From positions 1 to 64,000 of the forward strand of contig JACOSB010000114.1 of the NCBI GenBank assembly GCA_016179105.1: a DNA stretch of 64,000 nt, in the 5' to 3' direction. Under the pieces are notes generated by a model, which worked only from the letters and a program-made list of their open reading frames with translations, was not told the origin of the DNA and made no database searches. This document shows, in pieces, positions 2,045 to 14,850 of the stretch; position 1 is the first letter of the stretch, and each line of letters opens with the position of its first letter. The translations under genes and the position numbers were made by a program. Source of the stretch: Candidatus Acetothermia bacterium. Lineage in GTDB: Bacteria; Bipolaricaulota; Bipolaricaulia; RBG-16-55-9; DRXL01.

Positions 2045-2137
2045 AGACTAGGCCGCTCCCAGTGTAATCGCAACGAAGTTCTATAGTTGAAGACACTTGT
2101 CCCTCTCACAATGGATATTTTACGCCTTCCATTGGCG

Positions 2138-3064
2138 TTATGCAAGTTTTGTGGCGGCCCGCAGTTTGGCACTGCGAGAGCGCGGATTTGCAGCGATTTC
2201 TGCTTCGCTCGGAAGGATCGGTCCCCAAGCCTCCAGCTCTTGGATTTTATGACAAGTGCAGACGGGAAAATCTGGCGGGCACACGCACGTGGAGGCTTTC
2301 TCTCGTAAGAATTGCTTTGTTATGCGATCTTCCAATGAATGGAAACTGATCACGACCAAATGGCCTCCGACCTTAAGATGCGCCCACGCTTGGTTCAACC
2401 CGCGGCCTAAATTTTCTAACTCATCATTGACTTCCAGCCGCAATGCTTGGAAAGCTCGTGTCGCGGGATGAATCGTTGAATGCCTCCGGGACGCGATTGG
2501 AATGATCTGCTCGACCAATCGCGCGAGTTGTGCGGTACTCTGGATGGGATGATTCATGCGCGTTCGCACGATCGCGTGGGCGATCTGTTTGGCCCAGCGT
2601 TCTTCTCCATAGTCATGAAAGATTGTTTCGAGCTGTTGCGCTGTGTACCGATTGACAATGTCCGATGCTTTGTGAGGCAATGAGCTATCCATACGCATAT
2701 CCAGCGGAGCATCAAAGCGAAAACTGAAACCACGCCCGGGTGTATCCAGCTGAAACGATGACACCCCTAAATCGAAAAGAACCCCATCGATGGAGGGAAT
2801 GGCCAGTTTCCCCAACGATTCAGACAAATTCTTAAAGTTGGTGTGAATAAGTTTGACGCGCTCACCGTACGTATTCAGTCTTATCTCCGCCCGGCTCAAA
2901 GCTTCCAGGTCACAATCAAAGCCGATCACTTGACCGTTCTGGAGACGTTCTGCAATCGCTGCCGTATGCCCGCCTCCACCCACGGTTGCATCGACATAGA
3001 TGCCTGCAGGGTGCACCTGCAAGAACTGTAATGTCTCTTGTAGCAAGACGGGTTGATGTTTCAT
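2138..3064 (-). CDS. rsmH: 16S rRNA (cytosine(1402)-N4)-methyltransferase RsmH (MraW)
   Basis: SAM-dependent enzyme that methylates N4 of C1402 in the ribosomal P-site region of 16S rRNA. The 308-residue length is typical. Family landmarks are present: the SAM motif YVDATVGGGGHTAAI near residue 24, the motif FDLGVSSFQLDTPGRGFSF near residue 97, ISFHSLEDR near residue 239, and the basic tail NPRSRSAKLRAATK. The start codon overlaps the stop of the upstream 55-residue gene by 4 bases (ATGA). Its position ahead of ftsL and ftsI is the classical mraW place in the division cluster. No mraZ is seen upstream, where csaB and the DUF5693-like gene lie instead. Confidence 0.97.
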   Translation of the reverse strand: MKHQPVLLQETLQFLQVHPAGIYVDATVGGGGHTAAIAERLQNGQVIGFDCDLEALSRAEIRLNTYGERVKLIHTNFKNLSESLGKLAIPSIDGVLFDLGVSSFQLDTPGRGFSFRFDAPLDMRMDSSLPHKASDIVNRYTAQQLETIFHDYGEERWAKQIAHAIVRTRMNHPIQSTAQLARLVEQIIPIASRRHSTIHPATRAFQALRLEVNDELENLGRGLNQAWAHLKVGGHLVVISFHSLEDRITKQFLREKASTCVCPPDFPVCTCHKIQELEAWGPILPSEAEIAANPRSRSAKLRAATKLA

Positions 3065-8444: not shown

Positions 8445-9221
8445 TCAAGCGCTCAAGAGCTCTGCGAGCTTGACCTGTGGGTCTTTCGCCTTCAGCAGGC
8501 TTGTTCCTACTAAAAATGCATCGGCTCCAGCATCACGTAGCTTTTGCAAATCTTCTCGGGTGTCAACCCCACTCAAGCTCCAAATGAGACGATCCTTAGA
8601 TGATTTTCCTAGAATGTCGGCTGTGCGGTTGAGGTCTATTTTCAGTGACGTAAGGTCACGATTGTTAATCCCTATCATGGTAGCGTTAGTCTTTAACGCA
8701 CGCTCATACTCATCGAGCGAGGCCACTTCCAGCAACACTTCTAGCTCTCGCTTCTGTGCTTCGCTAATCATGGCATCTAGATTTAAAGAAGCATAGTCTC
8801 TCTCAAAGAGCGTTGCAATCAAGAGTACTCCACTCGCGCCGTAAGCGCGCGCCGCGTCTAACTGTTCTGTGCAAATAACAAAGTCTTTCGTGAGCGTGGG
8901 TAAGCCCAAGAGACTCGCGTGCCTCAGATTCTCTAGAGAACCGCCAAAATGCTGAGGTTCTGTAAGGATCGACAGCCCCGAGACGCCTGCTTGCACGTAG
9001 AGCGAGAGCATTTCATCGGTCGAATTTTTTTTTAGTAAAATTCCTTCTGAAGGCGAAGCGGGCTTTAGCTCTGCGATAATCGCATTTTTCCCCTCTGAGC
9101 AATGCGCGATCGCTTGGACAAAAGAGAACTTTGGGCCAATGCTTCCTTGGGGCCTACTTTGATAGTAGCCGTGTCGAATGGATTGTTGGACATCAGAAAC
9201 AATCCGATCTAGATAGTCCAT
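8445..9221 (-). CDS. trpC: Indole-3-glycerol phosphate synthase
   Basis: Closes the indole ring in tryptophan synthesis, converting CdRP to indole-3-glycerol phosphate. The 258-residue TIM barrel has the expected motifs: IIAELKPASPSEG with catalytic Lys near residue 53, LTKDFVI with the second Lys, LLEVAS, IGINNRDLTSL and the phosphate-binding SLSGVDTREDLQ with FLVGTSLL. The gene overlaps the end of trpD by 13 bases and is the last gene of the trp segment. trpF, trpB and trpA are not in the window and must lie elsewhere. Confidence 0.96.
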   Translation of the reverse strand: MDYLDRIVSDVQQSIRHGYYQSRPQGSIGPKFSFVQAIAHCSEGKNAIIAELKPASPSEGILLKKNSTDEMLSLYVQAGVSGLSILTEPQHFGGSLENLRHASLLGLPTLTKDFVICTEQLDAARAYGASGVLLIATLFERDYASLNLDAMISEAQKRELEVLLEVASLDEYERALKTNATMIGINNRDLTSLKIDLNRTADILGKSSKDRLIWSLSGVDTREDLQKLRDAGADAFLVGTSLLKAKDPQVKLAELLSA

Positions 9222-10255
9222 AGGAGTTCTTTCTTCAACGCTCCACCGCTATGTTCGATGAGGCGACGAAGTTTGTCAAGCGCCGCTCCCGAGTGCAGGC
9301 TTGCCTCGGCTTTTTCAATGCCCTCTTCGATCGAACCTGCCGCGCCGCTCACGTAGACAGCCGCGCCTGCATTGAATAGAACCATCTCATAACGCGCATC
9401 TTTGATCTTGCCCGCGAGCAGTTCATAGGTGACTCTCGCGCTCTCCGCAGGTGGCAGGCTCGCTATCTCTTCTGGTCGCGCGGTCCGAAAACCGAACATT
9501 TTTGGGTCTAGCTTCAACTGAGAGATTGTCCCATTCTGCACGAAATTCGCGCGTGTCTCGCCGGTAATTGAGATCTCGTCGACTCCATCGATGCCGTAAA
9601 CTACTAATGCTCGCTCCACTCCTAAGTGCTGAACGACTTGAGTGTAGACCTCCACTAAATTCTCATTGAAGACACCCAAGAGTTGTGCTCGGGCGCCGGC
9701 GGGATTCACCAACGGCCCCAAGATGTTGAAGACCGTTCGAATGCCCAGTTCTTTTCGCGCTTTCGCCACATGCTTCATCGCCGGATGGAACTTGGGCGCA
9801 AACATAAATCCAATGCCTACTTGCTCGACCGCTTCGGTCACTTGGGAGGCTTCTATGTTCAGATTGACACCCAAGGCTTCAAGCAGATCGGCGCTTCCGC
9901 AGGCGCTCGTCACGCCGCGATTGCCGTGCTTTGCCACCGGCACTCCCGCTCCAGCGACGACGAAAGCGCTCACGGTAGACACATTGAATGTCTTTAGACG
10001 TGCCCCGCCGGTCCCAACCACATCGGTTAACACACCGTTGACACGCGGCTCGATGCGCACACAAAACGCTCGCATCGTCTCCGCCAGCGCCGTGATCTCT
10101 TCGACCGTCTCACCCTTGAAGCGAAGCCCCATCAAGAACGCGCCGATCTGAGCATCCGAACAGCGCCCGCTCATCAGCTCTTCCATGACCGATCGGGCGA
10201 TTTCTCGACTCAAGTGTTTTCGTTCTGCCAGCAATTGCAACGCTTGGCTCATCAT
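9209..10255 (-). CDS. trpD: Anthranilate phosphoribosyltransferase
   Basis: Transfers phosphoribose from PRPP to anthranilate. 348 residues with the N-terminal helical bundle (LSREIARSVMEELMSG), the PRPP-binding glycine loop VVGTGGARLKTFNVST (residues about 79-94), then AKHGNRGVTSACGSADLLEALG and FNILGPLVNPA. The loop differs from the common GTGGDG..TFN in having A-R after GG, a tolerable variation. The start overlaps the trpG stop by 4 bases (ATGA) and the 3' end overlaps trpC by 13 bases, so trpG, trpD and trpC are translationally coupled. Confidence 0.96.
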   Translation of the reverse strand: MMSQALQLLAERKHLSREIARSVMEELMSGRCSDAQIGAFLMGLRFKGETVEEITALAETMRAFCVRIEPRVNGVLTDVVGTGGARLKTFNVSTVSAFVVAGAGVPVAKHGNRGVTSACGSADLLEALGVNLNIEASQVTEAVEQVGIGFMFAPKFHPAMKHVAKARKELGIRTVFNILGPLVNPAGARAQLLGVFNENLVEVYTQVVQHLGVERALVVYGIDGVDEISITGETRANFVQNGTISQLKLDPKMFGFRTARPEEIASLPPAESARVTYELLAGKIKDARYEMVLFNAGAAVYVSGAAGSIEEGIEKAEASLHSGAALDKLRRLIEHSGGALKKELLWTI

Positions 10256-10861
10256 CGCGCCGTCACCCCCGACTGCCGAAGCGATCGGGCTTTCAAGAAA
10301 TTGTGGAGCAGTTGCTTGCCGTGCGTCGTGAGGATCGATTCTGGATGAAATTGAACGCCCTCGATCGGATAGCGCCGATGACGTAGCCCCATGACTTCTC
10401 CGTCTTCCGACTGCGCAGCGATCTCTAACTCCGCGGGAAAGCTAGTGTGATCGACGACGAGCGAGTGATAGCGAGCTGCAGGAAACCCTTGCGGGAGTCC
10501 TTCAAAAATTCTCATACTGTCGTGATAAATGTGAGCGACTTTCCCATGAATCGGTTTTTTCGCGCGACGGATGTGGCCTCCAAAGACGTGCCCGATTCCC
10601 TGGTGTCCCAAGCAAACACCCAGTGTGGGAATTTGGGGTGAAAGCTTGTTCAAAATTTCTCCGCACACGCCAAAGTCGCGCGCCTTGTCTGGGCTCCCTG
10701 GGCCGGGCGATAAGACAATTCGATCGGGTTGCAATCGCTTTACTTCTTCAAGAGTAATTTCGTCGTTCCGAAAAACTTCTACGCTAGCGCCAAGGTCGCC
10801 AAAGATAATCAGCCAAGTTGAACGTGAATGAATCGTAGTTATCGACCAGCAAGACTTTCAT
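10252..10861 (-). pseudogene. trpG: Anthranilate synthase glutamine amidotransferase TrpG, interrupted by a one-base frameshift
   Basis: Class I glutamine amidotransferase that supplies ammonia to TrpE. Translation from ATG 10861 (SD AGGAGG, ATGA overlap with the trpE stop) gives the expected N-terminus MKVLLVDNYDSFTFNLADYL, then goes out of frame to a stop after five codons. One extra T on the coding strand, in the AAA at 10801-10803, restores LGDLGASVEVFRNDEI and joins the rest, open to 10252. The remainder is intact: LSPGPGSP, GVCLGHQ with the nucleophile Cys, and the C-terminal GVQFHPES with the catalytic His. Either a recent mutation or a sequencing or assembly error; intact neighbours favour the latter. 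The downstream reading alone (10252-10734) lacks the N-terminal strand. Confidence 0.88.
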
Positions 10862-12297
10862 AATAGACCTCCTAAGGCCTTTTTGAGAGCTCCAAGTTTG
10901 TGTTCGGTCTCGGCAAATTCGCGCTCAGGCACGGAATCATAAACAATCCCGGCTCCTGCCTGCAAATAGAGCTTTTCAGTGTCAGCCACGATCGTGCGGA
11001 TAGTGATCGCCGTGTCCATGTTGCCATTAAGCGAAAAATATCCGACAGCACCCGCGTACGGCCCGCGAGCACTCGGTTCAAGTCGAGAGATCAATTCCAT
11101 CGCCCGAACTTTGGGCGCTCCAGAGACCGTGCCCGCCGGGAAAATAGAAGCAAAGGCATCCAGTGCATCCAACTCTTTACGCAGTGTTCCTTCCACGCGT
11201 GAGACGATATGTTGGACATGGCTGAAGCGTTCGACGGACATATAGTCGGGCACATGCACCGAGCCGTACTGGCTCACTCGACCGACATCGTTGCGGGCCA
11301 GATCGACGAGCATATTGTGCTCGGCACGCTCTTTTTCATCCGCGAGAAGTTCTTGCGCGTAAGCTTGTCGTTCTGCCTCGGTTTGGCCGAGCGGACGTGT
11401 GCCCGCGATGGGGTACGTCGTCACCGTTCGGCCTTGGAGCGATGCGAGCATCTCTGGACTTGAGCCAGCGGCAAAGCGTTCCCCGAAATCGAGAAAATAC
11501 ATATAAGGGGACGGATTGATCTCTCGCAATGTGCGATAGACATCAAACAGTTCGCCGCGGTAGAGTGCGCTGAGCTGACGTGAGAGGACAATCTGATAAA
11601 TCTCGCCTGCGCAAATATATTCGCGCGCTGCCTCTACAGTTTTAACGAATTGCGCTTGCGCCTGATTGCTAGTCAATGCGTCACAAGAAAAAGACTCTCG
11701 ATCTGGCGCCCGTGAATCTGTCCCCAAACCTAACAATTCAGACCTGTCTTCGGCGTGAGAAAAATAGAACGCGCGTGAAGCGTGATGATCGAAAACCACG
11801 CCATCCAGATAAAGCCCAAGCTCAAAGTCGGGGAAGATTTTCTCTCCCGCGGCATGGGGCACACGTTCGAGATGACGCACGAAGTCATAGCCGACGTAGC
11901 CGACTAATCCGCCCAAGTACTTGAACTCAGTCAGATGGGGGCTGCCAATATCGCGTAGCAACGCGCGTAGGTCTTGGAGGGGCTTATGACTGGCGCCGAG
12001 CGCTTTGCCATCGACGAACAATGTTCCTTCGCGCAGCGCGAGCACAGCTGCGGGTTCAAATCCGATGAAAGTGAACTCGGCGAGCCGTTCGGCACCGGGC
12101 GCGCTTTCCAAGATGAAACTCCGGCGGACGTGGGGACGAAGGCGCTCGTACAATGCGAACGGGTCTACGGCCGACACTGATTTGAACAATGGTTCCGGTC
12201 TAAGGTTTTTTAGGACGGGGAGAATCTTTGAGAAGGAAAACGAGGGTACAGTAGGCTTTTGTTTAGGCGGCGTAGTGAGCGACCCAAAGTCGATCAC
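10858..12297 (-). CDS. trpE: Anthranilate synthase component I
   Basis: Converts chorismate to anthranilate with ammonia from TrpG. 479 residues from a GTG start at 12297. The tryptophan feedback site is recognisable (SFILESAPGAERLAEF, the LLES-type motif). Catalytic-domain landmarks are GGLVGYVGYD, GEIYQIVLSRQL, GSSPEML, TYPIAGTRPLG, DEKERAEHNMLVDLARNDVG and FPAGTVSGAPKVRAME. The stop overlaps the trpG ATG by 4 bases. Genomic context argues for TrpE over PabB. The start is the weak point: AAAGGG directly abuts the GTG with no spacing, and a short out-of-frame reading with its own SD (12263-12313) overlaps it. Confidence 0.95.
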   Translation of the reverse strand: MIDFGSLTTPPKQKPTVPSFSFSKILPVLKNLRPEPLFKSVSAVDPFALYERLRPHVRRSFILESAPGAERLAEFTFIGFEPAAVLALREGTLFVDGKALGASHKPLQDLRALLRDIGSPHLTEFKYLGGLVGYVGYDFVRHLERVPHAAGEKIFPDFELGLYLDGVVFDHHASRAFYFSHAEDRSELLGLGTDSRAPDRESFSCDALTSNQAQAQFVKTVEAAREYICAGEIYQIVLSRQLSALYRGELFDVYRTLREINPSPYMYFLDFGERFAAGSSPEMLASLQGRTVTTYPIAGTRPLGQTEAERQAYAQELLADEKERAEHNMLVDLARNDVGRVSQYGSVHVPDYMSVERFSHVQHIVSRVEGTLRKELDALDAFASIFPAGTVSGAPKVRAMELISRLEPSARGPYAGAVGYFSLNGNMDTAITIRTIVADTEKLYLQAGAGIVYDSVPEREFAETEHKLGALKKALGGLL

Positions 12298-12346: not shown

Positions 12347-12375
12347 ATTATAAGCCAATAGTTCACAATTGTCAA
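12347..12375 (-). promoter_or_regulatory. Consensus sigma70 promoter for trpEGDC
   Basis: Minus strand reads TTGACA (12370-12375), a 17-base spacer, then TATAAT (12347-12352): both hexamers and the spacing match the consensus exactly. The predicted start near 12340 lies between tyrA and trpE, giving a leader of about 43 bases that includes an ACTTT/AAAGT inverted repeat. It allows trpEGDC to be transcribed separately from the upstream aromatic genes. Confidence 0.82.
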
Positions 12376-12378
12376 GCA

Positions 12379-13485
12379 TTAAGAGAGCAAATTGCACTCA
12401 TAGCCCCCTTCGCGCAAGGCACTCGCGGCTCTCTTAGCATCGGTTTCCGTCGCAAAATAAAGATGAAACGTGCCAGCCTCGTACTCCCGCACTTTCAGCA
12501 ATTCTATGTCTTTGATGCTGATCTTCTTTTGCGCGATTGCACCCGTGATCTCAGCCAAGGCCCCGGCGCGATCGGGAACCACAATCGCCAGTCGGTGCAA
12601 TGCTCTTAGAAAACCTTTCGAGCGGCGAGGTAACGCATCTCGAAATTTTTTCGCTTTGAGAAAATTCGTCCCGATCTCATCTGTATGCTTAGGAAGCGCG
12701 GAGCGCATCTGCGAAAGTAAACCCATGAAATCACCCAGTACAGAATCTATAGAAGTAGCATTGGTCGTAAAAATATCCTTCCAAATGCCAAAGGGAGACG
12801 AAGCGATGCGAGTGAGGTCGCGAAAGCCCCCAGCGGCTAGCTCTCGGTAAAGCGTCGAATCTTTCGCCTTCTGTGCAACCACCGTGGCAAGTGCGACCGA
12901 GATCAATTGAGGCAAATGACTCGTGGCCGCGACGAGCCGGTCGTGCAACTCTGGATCGAGAAAGAGCGTTTGGGCACCCAGTTTACCGAGGAATGAAGCG
13001 AGCCTTGCTGATTGAATTTGCTTTTTCTTCATTGGGGTGAGCACATAGAGGGCATTCTCGAACATCAACGGATGAGCGCCCTCGATACCTTGTTGCTCGG
13101 AGCCCGCCATCGGATGGCCCCCGACAAAATGTGCCGGCAAATATCTTTTGGCGATCCGGCAGATTTCCGCTTTGGTTGAGCCTGTGTCCGTAACAATGGC
13201 TTCGGGCCTAATAAGAATCGGTAATGCCGGCAAAATTTCTAGGATCGAGCGAATCGGCGTCGCCAGAATAATCAAATCTGTTTTGACCAAAGCATTGAGA
13301 CCCTGACTAGCGACGTCGATCGCCCCACGCGCCTTGGCGCATCTGAGAGCTTTTAGATCTTTGTCAATACCGATCACTCTGATTCTTGGCTGAAAGCGTT
13401 TGATGGCAAGTCCGAACGAACCTCCGATCAAGCCCACACCGACAATCCCAACACACTTAAAATGCTTAGACTGTGCTGGCTTCAT
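12379..13485 (-). CDS. tyrA: Prephenate dehydrogenase with C-terminal ACT domain
   Basis: NAD(P)-dependent oxidative decarboxylation of prephenate on the way to tyrosine. 368 residues: an N-terminal Rossmann fold with GVGLIGGSFG (residues about 16-25), the TDTGSTKAEI and GGHPMAGSEQQGIEGA motifs of the TyrA family with its catalytic His, a helical domain, and a C-terminal ACT domain (about 295-368, RLAIVVPDRAGALAEITGAI). The ACT domain probably senses an aromatic amino acid. The start overlaps the DAHP-synthase-like gene by 20 bases, so both are co-translated; the last bases lie next to the trpE promoter. Confidence 0.94.
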   Translation of the reverse strand: MKPAQSKHFKCVGIVGVGLIGGSFGLAIKRFQPRIRVIGIDKDLKALRCAKARGAIDVASQGLNALVKTDLIILATPIRSILEILPALPILIRPEAIVTDTGSTKAEICRIAKRYLPAHFVGGHPMAGSEQQGIEGAHPLMFENALYVLTPMKKKQIQSARLASFLGKLGAQTLFLDPELHDRLVAATSHLPQLISVALATVVAQKAKDSTLYRELAAGGFRDLTRIASSPFGIWKDIFTTNATSIDSVLGDFMGLLSQMRSALPKHTDEIGTNFLKAKKFRDALPRRSKGFLRALHRLAIVVPDRAGALAEITGAIAQKKISIKDIELLKVREYEAGTFHLYFATETDAKRAASALREGGYECNLLS

Positions 13486-14500
13486 GGAATGGTCTCCTTC
13501 GCAATCCTCTGCTCAAAACGCGAACGCGGTCGAGCAATTCTTTCAGGGCCTTCGTCCCAAGCGCCGGAAGGTTGCTTCTCAAAATTTCGCCAGAATCAGC
13601 AGCGACAGGAAGAACAAGACCATCGGCTCCGGCCGCGATGCCTGCGAGGGCCACAGCGGCCAGATGGTCGGGACGTCCCACAACATAGCTGGGATTGGCC
13701 AGAACCGGCAAGTGACTGAGCGCCTTGATCGCCGGGATCAGACCCACATCGAAAAGCAAGGGCGCGTAATCATCGAAGCTGCGGATTCCCCGCTCACACA
13801 GGATGACCGAATAATTCCCGGTGGACATCACATATTCTGCAGCGAGCAAGAAATCTTCCATTTTCGCAGCCACCGCACGCTCTAACAAGACCGGCTTTCC
13901 CATTCGCCCAACTGCGCGCAGCAGATCAGCGTTCTGCATATTATGTGCGCCAATCTGAAAAATATCAGCATGGCCTCCCATAAACTCTAGCTCAGTGTGA
14001 TCAGAGACTGCTGCGACGATGACGAAATTTTGTATACGGGCAATTTGGCTTATCTGTCGCAACGCTAGATCATTCGGCTGTTTTTGCGCACGCAGATTTT
14101 CCTCAACCCGAGAGCTTCCCCAGCGTAACATGTGAATTCCACAATCCATTAGAGCCTTCGCTGTTTTTTCTATCTGCTCTAGACTCTTGAAATGACTCAC
14201 GTCGGCCACCACAACGGGCGTTTGGTCGCCAATCCTCACAGGCCCGATCTCTATAACGGTTCCATTTGGCTTGAACTGACGCGCTGCTAACTTGTACGGT
14301 TTGTCCGTATGGAAAACTCGCTCGACGCCTTCCATCTGTGTCAAAGACTGAAGATTTAACTCGCGCTCTGGGCCAAGTGCGGCGAGAATCGTGTAATTGA
14401 CCCCCGTCGAACGGTGCACCTGAAAGGAGAGAGTTTCCAATTTTTCGATTATTTTATTTATCTGGCTTTGAGAAGCCGCTGGTTTCATTACGAGAATCAT
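13466..14500 (-). CDS. DAHP synthase homologue (type I-beta fold) lacking metal and substrate residues
   Basis: 344 residues with the full architecture of the short I-beta DAHP synthase: an N-terminal ferredoxin-like regulatory domain (residues 1-75, MILVMKPAASQSQINKI) and a TIM barrel (DIFQIGAHNMQN, ILCERGIRSF). It aligns almost without gaps to the Thermotoga enzyme as I recall it, but the residues known there as metal ligands (Cys102, His272, Glu298, Asp309) read V, Y, P and S. The KPRTSP substrate motif reads RVEENL and KRG reads ERA. Synthase activity is therefore unlikely as written. It may be an allosteric partner or a repurposed barrel. SD AGGAGG before ATG 14500. First gene of the operon, overlapping tyrA by 20 bases. 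Confidence 0.85.
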   Translation of the reverse strand: MILVMKPAASQSQINKIIEKLETLSFQVHRSTGVNYTILAALGPERELNLQSLTQMEGVERVFHTDKPYKLAARQFKPNGTVIEIGPVRIGDQTPVVVADVSHFKSLEQIEKTAKALMDCGIHMLRWGSSRVEENLRAQKQPNDLALRQISQIARIQNFVIVAAVSDHTELEFMGGHADIFQIGAHNMQNADLLRAVGRMGKPVLLERAVAAKMEDFLLAAEYVMSTGNYSVILCERGIRSFDDYAPLLFDVGLIPAIKALSHLPVLANPSYVVGRPDHLAAVALAGIAAGADGLVLPVAADSGEILRSNLPALGTKALKELLDRVRVLSRGLRRRPFHEASTV

Positions 14501-14640: not shown

Positions 14641-14686
14641 GCGCCTTAGGCGCAATAGGAAGTGCGATAGGCGGCGACGCGCCACC
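14641..14686 (-). promoter_or_regulatory. Attenuator-like mutually exclusive hairpins in the aromatic leader
   Basis: In the minus-strand transcript the sequence GGCGC at 14679-14683 and the GGCGC at 14641-14645 can each pair with the same GCGCC at 14649-14653. A separate 7-bp stem (14680-14686 with 14670-14676, loop of 3) competes with the first pairing and contains the two Trp codons (14682-14687). The leader peptide stop codon forms the loop of the last hairpin (14646-14648). No U-tract follows, so control could be by Rho or by translation and not by an intrinsic terminator. Confidence 0.5.
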
Positions 14687-14780
14687 AGGAAGTGTAAGAA
14701 GTGAGCTGCGGCAAGAAGCTTAGCGTGGGGCAGCTTCGGTTAGATCGGCATAGGCCTTGGCTTAAACGTCCGATTGACAT
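14646..14780 (-). CDS. Leader peptide of the aromatic amino acid operon (44 codons)
   Basis: Short reading frame starting at ATG 14780 with a good SD (GAGGTGA, 14786-14792, 5-base spacing), about 35 bases after a predicted transcription start. The peptide is unremarkable until its last 18 residues, TSYTSWWRVAAYRTSYCA, which carry two adjacent Trp and three Tyr codons. Stop at 14646. Its 3' part overlaps competing hairpins (14641-14686). This is the classical design of a ribosome-stalling leader for aromatic amino acid genes, and the next gene downstream (145 bases on) starts the DAHP-synthase-like/tyrA/trp operon. Not a recognised family; inferred from context. Confidence 0.65.
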   Translation of the reverse strand: MSIGRLSQGLCRSNRSCPTLSFLPQLTSYTSWWRVAAYRTSYCA

Positions 14781-14821: not shown

Positions 14822-14850
14822 ATTGTATGGCAGATTCTTGCTTGCGTCAA
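14822..14850 (-). promoter_or_regulatory. Sigma70 promoter of the aromatic amino acid operon
   Basis: Minus strand reads TTGACG (14845-14850), a 17-base spacer, then TACAAT (14822-14827), each five of six to consensus. It begins 4 bases after the folE stop codon. The predicted start near 14815 places the leader-peptide SD and ATG at normal distances. The gap between this promoter and the gene at 14500 is filled by the leader peptide and hairpins; nothing else was seen there. Confidence 0.72.

Follow-up and report, generated by a model that had tools for sequence, protein, structure and literature searches.

In a window of 64,000 nucleotides from a Candidatus Acetothermia bacterium (the whole stretch analysed; contig JACOSB010000114.1), we found a protein homologous to type I-beta DAHP synthase (DAHPS). 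Its residues make it nearly certain that it is catalytically dead as a DAHP synthase, and we give it an even chance of being a tyrosine-sensing regulatory pseudo-subunit that targets the active DAHPS (or TyrA). Aromatic amino-acid synthesis begins with DAHP synthase, which controls entry into the pathway and serves as a model of how added domains confer allostery. The homologue is hereafter called the dead copy, and G000 is the genome that contains the window (3.71 Mb, 166 contigs, 93% complete). The features are listed in Table 1.

Table 1. Positions of the features; plain coordinates refer to the window, others carry the name of their contig or locus.
Feature	Coordinates	Strand	Basis
Dead copy: type I-beta DAHP synthase homologue, nearly certainly catalytically dead, 344 aa	13466..14500	-	ORF, domain match, alignment, residue check
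Ferredoxin-like/ACT sensor domain (PF18152), N-terminal, intact; H29 and S31 kept	14309..14500	-	score and alignment
S102 codon (Cys metal ligand in active enzymes)	14195..14197	-	residue alignment
Residues 131-141, former KPRTSPYSFQG substrate loop, now RVEENLRAQKQ; pLDDT <50	14078..14110	-	alignment and model
E207 codon (Lys PEP ligand in active enzymes)	13880..13882	-	residue alignment
Y272 codon (His metal ligand)	13685..13687	-	residue alignment
P298 codon (Glu metal ligand)	13607..13609	-	residue alignment
S309 codon (Asp metal/E4P ligand)	13574..13576	-	residue alignment
Promoter-like TTGACG-17-TACAAT upstream of the dead copy	14822..14850	-	consensus match only
Candidate leader peptide MSIGRLSQGLCRSNRSCPTLSFLPQLTSYTSWWRVAAYRTSYCA, Tyr/Trp cluster at end	14646..14780	-	ORF and shuffles
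8-bp hairpin, leader stop codon UAA as loop	14638..14656	-	similarly placed hairpins in G011 and G015 leaders
tyrA, prephenate dehydrogenase with ACT domain, own SD GAAGGAGACC	12379..13485	-	domain/family matches
Perfect TTGACA-17-TATAAT, sigma-70-like 12/12, between tyrA and trpE	12347..12375	-	consensus match
trpE	10858..12297	-	domain/family matches
trpG	10252..10830	-	domain match
trpD	9209..10255	-	domain match
trpC	8445..9221	-	domain match
Related leader ORFs	L033 12170-12310; L034 about 2105-2145		Tyr/Trp-rich ends and stop-codon hairpin
Complete DAHPS of the same genome	G000:C164:41950-42960		
Prephenate dehydratase	L032 9654-10181; G000:C164:39653-40180		
Second dead copy, G017:C291	L030 2739-3725		

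The open reading frame of the dead copy is intact, and a domain search detected an N-terminal FXD domain (PF18152) followed by a DAHP_synth_1 barrel (PF00793), i.e., the domain composition of a type I-beta DAHPS, with the (beta/alpha)8 fold of the barrel predicted by AlphaFold2. With phmmer, residues 1-332 were aligned with the Thermotoga maritima enzyme (1RZM) with zero gaps, so that the Thermotoga numbering could be transferred directly. Both domain matches and this alignment bear out the homology with type I-beta DAHPS claimed in the first-pass annotation. The curated NCBIfam cut-offs for DAHPS were missed (TIGR01361, 196.6 of 267.75; PRK08673, 263 of 335 bits), the score was below all the KDO8P synthase cut-offs, and the barrel scored 108 bits with PF00793 vs 269 bits in the active enzyme. 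By sequence, the dead copy is a type I-beta DAHPS homologue that lies outside that enzyme family, because the defining ligands were checked and found to be absent. An annotation based on domains only would label the gene an aroF enzyme.

The list of metal and substrate ligands was taken from PMC6362186, and its positions were shifted into Thermotoga numbering. None of the four metal ligands was kept, C102, H272, E298 and D309 being replaced by S, Y, P and S. Within the PEP/E4P set (R126, K131, R133, T134, R186, K207 and R237) only R126 and R237 were retained, and the replacements were K131 to R, R133 to E, T134 to E, R186 to H and K207 to E. In addition, P132 was changed to V, S135 to N and G209 to A; Q182, G184 and A185 remained unchanged. 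The first-pass annotation had read the metal ligands as V, Y, P and S and had considered all the substrate motifs lost. Its Y, P and S are correct, but Cys102 reads Ser and the Val sits at Pro101; the conversions of KPRTSP into RVEENL and of KRG into ERA are both present in the alignment, and the loss of substrate residues stands for the five replaced PEP/E4P residues but was slightly too strong as worded, since R126, Q182, G184, A185 and R237 are kept. The other frames around each motif, which were inspected for a frameshift or for displaced ligands, carried no canonical motif. With no displaced motif in those frames, neither misalignment nor frameshift explains the ligand loss, which was thus upheld against the possibility, raised with the original claim, that the ligands were shifted but present. 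Among near-invariant columns, 39 of 91 were lost in the dead copy, and these clustered at the active site. The C/H/E/D ligands were retained, where covered, in about 30 other homologues from the phylum and the closest public loci, and the sole exception was G017:C291 (see below).

The AlphaFold2 model of the dead copy (pLDDT 84.6, pTM 0.86) matched 1RZM with a Z-score of 40.4 and 2.1 Å over 332 residues. The only weak spots were the substrate loop and the metal-loop block 301-310 (mean pLDDT 54). When the active paralogue was folded from the same sequences as a control, blocks 131-140 and 301-310 averaged 74 and 87. The FXD domain scored 68.8 bits with PF18152 (65.9 bits in the domain search), in the range of the active full-length copies (68-88 bits), and together with the predicted fold this is in agreement with the earlier statement that the N-terminal regulatory domain and the barrel scaffold are intact. 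As in a regulatory pseudoenzyme, catalytic residues have been lost within a fold that the model predicts to be intact, and an active paralogue is present in the genome. The search for a second, complete DAHPS, which had been suggested as a check, located it in the aro operon on contig C164, with all the catalytic residues present and 40% identity to the dead copy; both proteins have the same domain order, and they differ in catalytic residues and at position 31 (V31 in the active enzyme vs S31 in the dead copy). The cluster around it contains trpF, trpB, trpA, aroK, aroB, chorismate mutase, prephenate dehydratase, aroA, aroE and aroC, with the gene names obtained by reading the sequence, and chorismate mutase and prephenate dehydratase assigned by separate searches. 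This prephenate dehydratase stops directly after its TRF motif; no ACT domain could be read in the frames downstream, and the protein of a relative (G016:C63) is longer (271 aa). A type I DAHPS was not found in G001-G006, G008 and G009, genomes of 0.9-1.9 Mb from the host's family, and the 3.7-Mb host has two copies; these smaller-genome relatives have likely lost aromatic synthesis.

Among 100 genomes of the phylum, 27 DAHPS matches were obtained, with one more dead homologue, G017:C291. Like the dead copy, it comes from the same order, lies directly before tyrA and has lost the four metal ligands (which read P/P/G/A), K131 and K207; unlike the dead copy, it has no FXD domain. In a tree computed without the active-site columns, it grouped (95%) with the active tyrA-linked copy of G015, which suggests that its catalysis was lost separately from that of the dead copy. 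The AU test, run with 5000 resamplings, which is under the program's advice for AU, rejected none of three groupings for the dead copy (G017 dead copy, tyrA-linked copies, active copies of its own family). A close orthologue of the dead copy was found neither in viral contigs nor in plasmids, where all matches were <60% identical, nor in 84,980 genomes, in which 11 loci were detected, all of at most 39% identity (10 with all residues intact where covered, and one distant).

In a neutral simulation, the gene of the active paralogue was mutated until nine catalytic residues had changed (400 runs). This produced a mean of 12.4 in-frame stops, and 0 of 400 runs were stop-free; the dead copy has no stops. 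By this measure the dead gene is probably not neutral debris, and its reading frame appears to be under constraint. The terminal branch of the dead copy relative to the rest of the tree was 0.10 for the FXD domain and 0.18 for the barrel scaffold, and was saturated for the active site. Near-invariant barrel residues were kept at 25 of 30 positions in region 179-245, which presumably lies at a subunit interface, vs 21 of 53 elsewhere (Fisher 2e-4). The dead copy has a conservative V252 at the site equivalent to I181 of Pyrococcus (Pfu), the residue altered in 4c1l, deposited as an "interface mutant".

tyrA starts within the dead copy, with an overlap of 20 nt, and the SD of the dead copy is AGGAGG. 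Of the Trp/Tyr operon proposed originally, the tyrA/trp context proved right, and the single operon had to be refined: since a 12/12 promoter-like site separates tyrA from trpE, the dead copy is probably transcribed together with tyrA as a separate unit. The candidate leader ORF upstream of the dead copy has 44 codons and ends with YTSWWRVAAYRTSYCA, and a comparable Tyr/Trp cluster appeared in 0.2% of the Markov shuffles of the leader region. Similar leader ORFs, with ends YSYPTYRLTYWLY and LYTTSCWPYRLW, precede the active DAHPS-tyrA pairs of G011 and G015, which represent two other families of the order, and each carries a hairpin at the stop codon. Furthermore, a TGTGAGGTGA site upstream of the leader ATG is common to G000 and G011 in the alignment. 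As a background value, 5 of 90 upstream regions, a set that includes the loci in question, had at least four Tyr/Trp in 15 codons. Such a leader was not found before the aro-operon copy or before the G017 dead copy; Rfam gave no match in the window, and neither a T-box nor a trp leader was detected in the upstream region. From the leader sequence we infer that the unit may be controlled by attenuation. The leader ORFs, found ahead of DAHPS-tyrA units in three families within the order, may represent a so far undescribed Tyr/Trp leader-peptide control. Since the leader recurs before the active pairs of G011 and G015, the dead copy is, as judged from gene order, the positional successor of an active DAHPS heading a putatively Tyr/Trp-controlled unit.

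The H29 and S31 residues of the sensor domain are also found in Thermotoga and in most homologues of the phylum outside the order; the order's remaining active copies with FXD carry V or I at position 31. In the Thermotoga DAHPS both residues contact tyrosine, and a change of S31 reportedly alters the choice of inhibitor (Cross and Parker 2013). In that enzyme, tyrosine is bound between two paired FXD-type domains (PMC5493349), and the sensor domain swings by ~110 degrees (PMC4822156). The retention of H29 and S31, together with tyrosine binding by paired domains, led to the proposal that the dead copy supplies tyrosine sensing. A duplicated type I-beta DAHPS heading the DAHPS-tyrA unit of the order would have lost catalysis in the host lineage and would have been kept as a regulatory subunit, with the aro-operon copy doing the chemistry. 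Its FXD/ACT domain would still bind tyrosine and its barrel would still assemble, most likely in mixed tetramers with the active DAHPS and possibly with TyrA; tyrosine binding would then make the sensor domain swing across the active subunits, presumably throttling them. The role of allosteric sensor or partner fits the data. The first-pass annotation had offered either a pseudo-enzyme or a new activity, and the complete paralogue, the intact domain and predicted fold, and the apparently constrained frame argue strongly for the former and not for the latter. Counting against the regulatory-subunit reading, the FXD branch of the dead copy (1.04) is about fivefold longer than the one leading to the active paralogue (0.20), the other DAHPS-tyrA pairs of the order have an active barrel without FXD, and the lack of FXD in the G017 dead copy implies that sensing is not the shared retained function there. 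A more doubtful extension of the proposal is that the sensor is detachable, i.e., that feedback specificity resides in a dead, separately expressed subunit which is itself under Tyr/Trp leader control; the cell would then tune the inhibitor of the first enzyme in its amount as well as in its ligand state.

Several other readings were weighed. It is unlikely, although it comes next in our estimation, that the dead copy partners TyrA (or TyrA and chorismate mutase) in a structural or regulatory role, as a scaffold channelling or gating the tyrosine branch. In both genomes that have a dead copy it directly precedes tyrA, and with the sensor domain absent in G017 the barrel beside tyrA is the common denominator; moreover, non-covalent complexes of DAHPS and chorismate mutase are known in Mycobacterium (PMC5526877). 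However, TyrA carries its own ACT domain, and the co-location with tyrA is ancestral, given the active copies at that place in G011 and G015, and hence may be mere inheritance. The gene might also be in the process of being lost, having recently escaped selection and persisting solely for the ribosome-binding site of tyrA, for coupling and for the leader: the branch is long in all parts, many of the most conserved sites have been replaced, and the SD of tyrA lies inside the end of the dead gene. Nevertheless, a full stop-free frame persists despite an active site saturated with change, region 179-245 and FXD have been selectively retained and the Thermotoga alignment is gap-free, so that we regard this outcome as improbable.

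Similarly little credit is given to a new activity, catalytic or binding, that the same barrel would host without metal. The barrel is predicted to be intact with R126, Q182 and R237 in place, and at 6 of the 24 positions lost in both dead copies the new residue is identical, K207E and G100D among them, where 1.8 would be expected (P 0.007 under a rough null); but the substrate and metal loops are of low predicted order, and the comparison involves two divergent sequences whose shared replacements may reflect common descent. That the protein is still a DAHPS or a KDO8P-synthase-like enzyme, using substitute ligands or metal-free chemistry, is very improbable. Known metal-free KDO8P synthases have a substitution at the Cys only, with the Lys/Arg/His/Asp set in place, whereas K131, R186, K207, H272, E298 and D309 are all changed here and all the NCBIfam cut-offs for DAHPS and KDO8P synthase are missed. 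The persistence of R126 and R237 would speak for an enzyme, as would the existence of metal-free KDO8P synthases, as given by the titles of 2nxh and 2nxi.

In a literature search covering few subscription journals, no paper on a DAHP synthase pseudoenzyme was found. If the regulatory-subunit reading is true, a natural dead copy with its sensor would show that feedback control can reside in a subunit of its own, and would provide a ready test of how the sensor and catalytic parts of DAHPS cooperate. Compared with known systems, the dead copy resembles the Thermotoga maritima DAHPS (1RZM, 3PG9) in its FXD domain and (beta/alpha)8 barrel, in H29/S31 and in its predicted fold, but it replaces all four metal ligands and K131, R133, T134, R186 and K207, which the Thermotoga enzyme keeps. 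It also differs from what would be expected of a metal-free KDO8P synthase, namely replacement of the Cys alone, retention of Lys/His/Glu/Asp and scores above the cut-offs of the KDO8P synthase models. Precedents for dead paralogues with a regulatory effect on active partners are the trypanosomatid AdoMetDC prozyme and the dead deoxyhypusine synthase paralogue (PMC5201418, PMC3663545). These prozymes are eukaryotic, act in other pathways and have a proven interaction, whereas the dead copy is known from its sequence and a model; in both cases, a dead paralogue has been retained beside the active enzyme, and by this analogy the dead copy would most likely work like the known dead-paralogue regulators.
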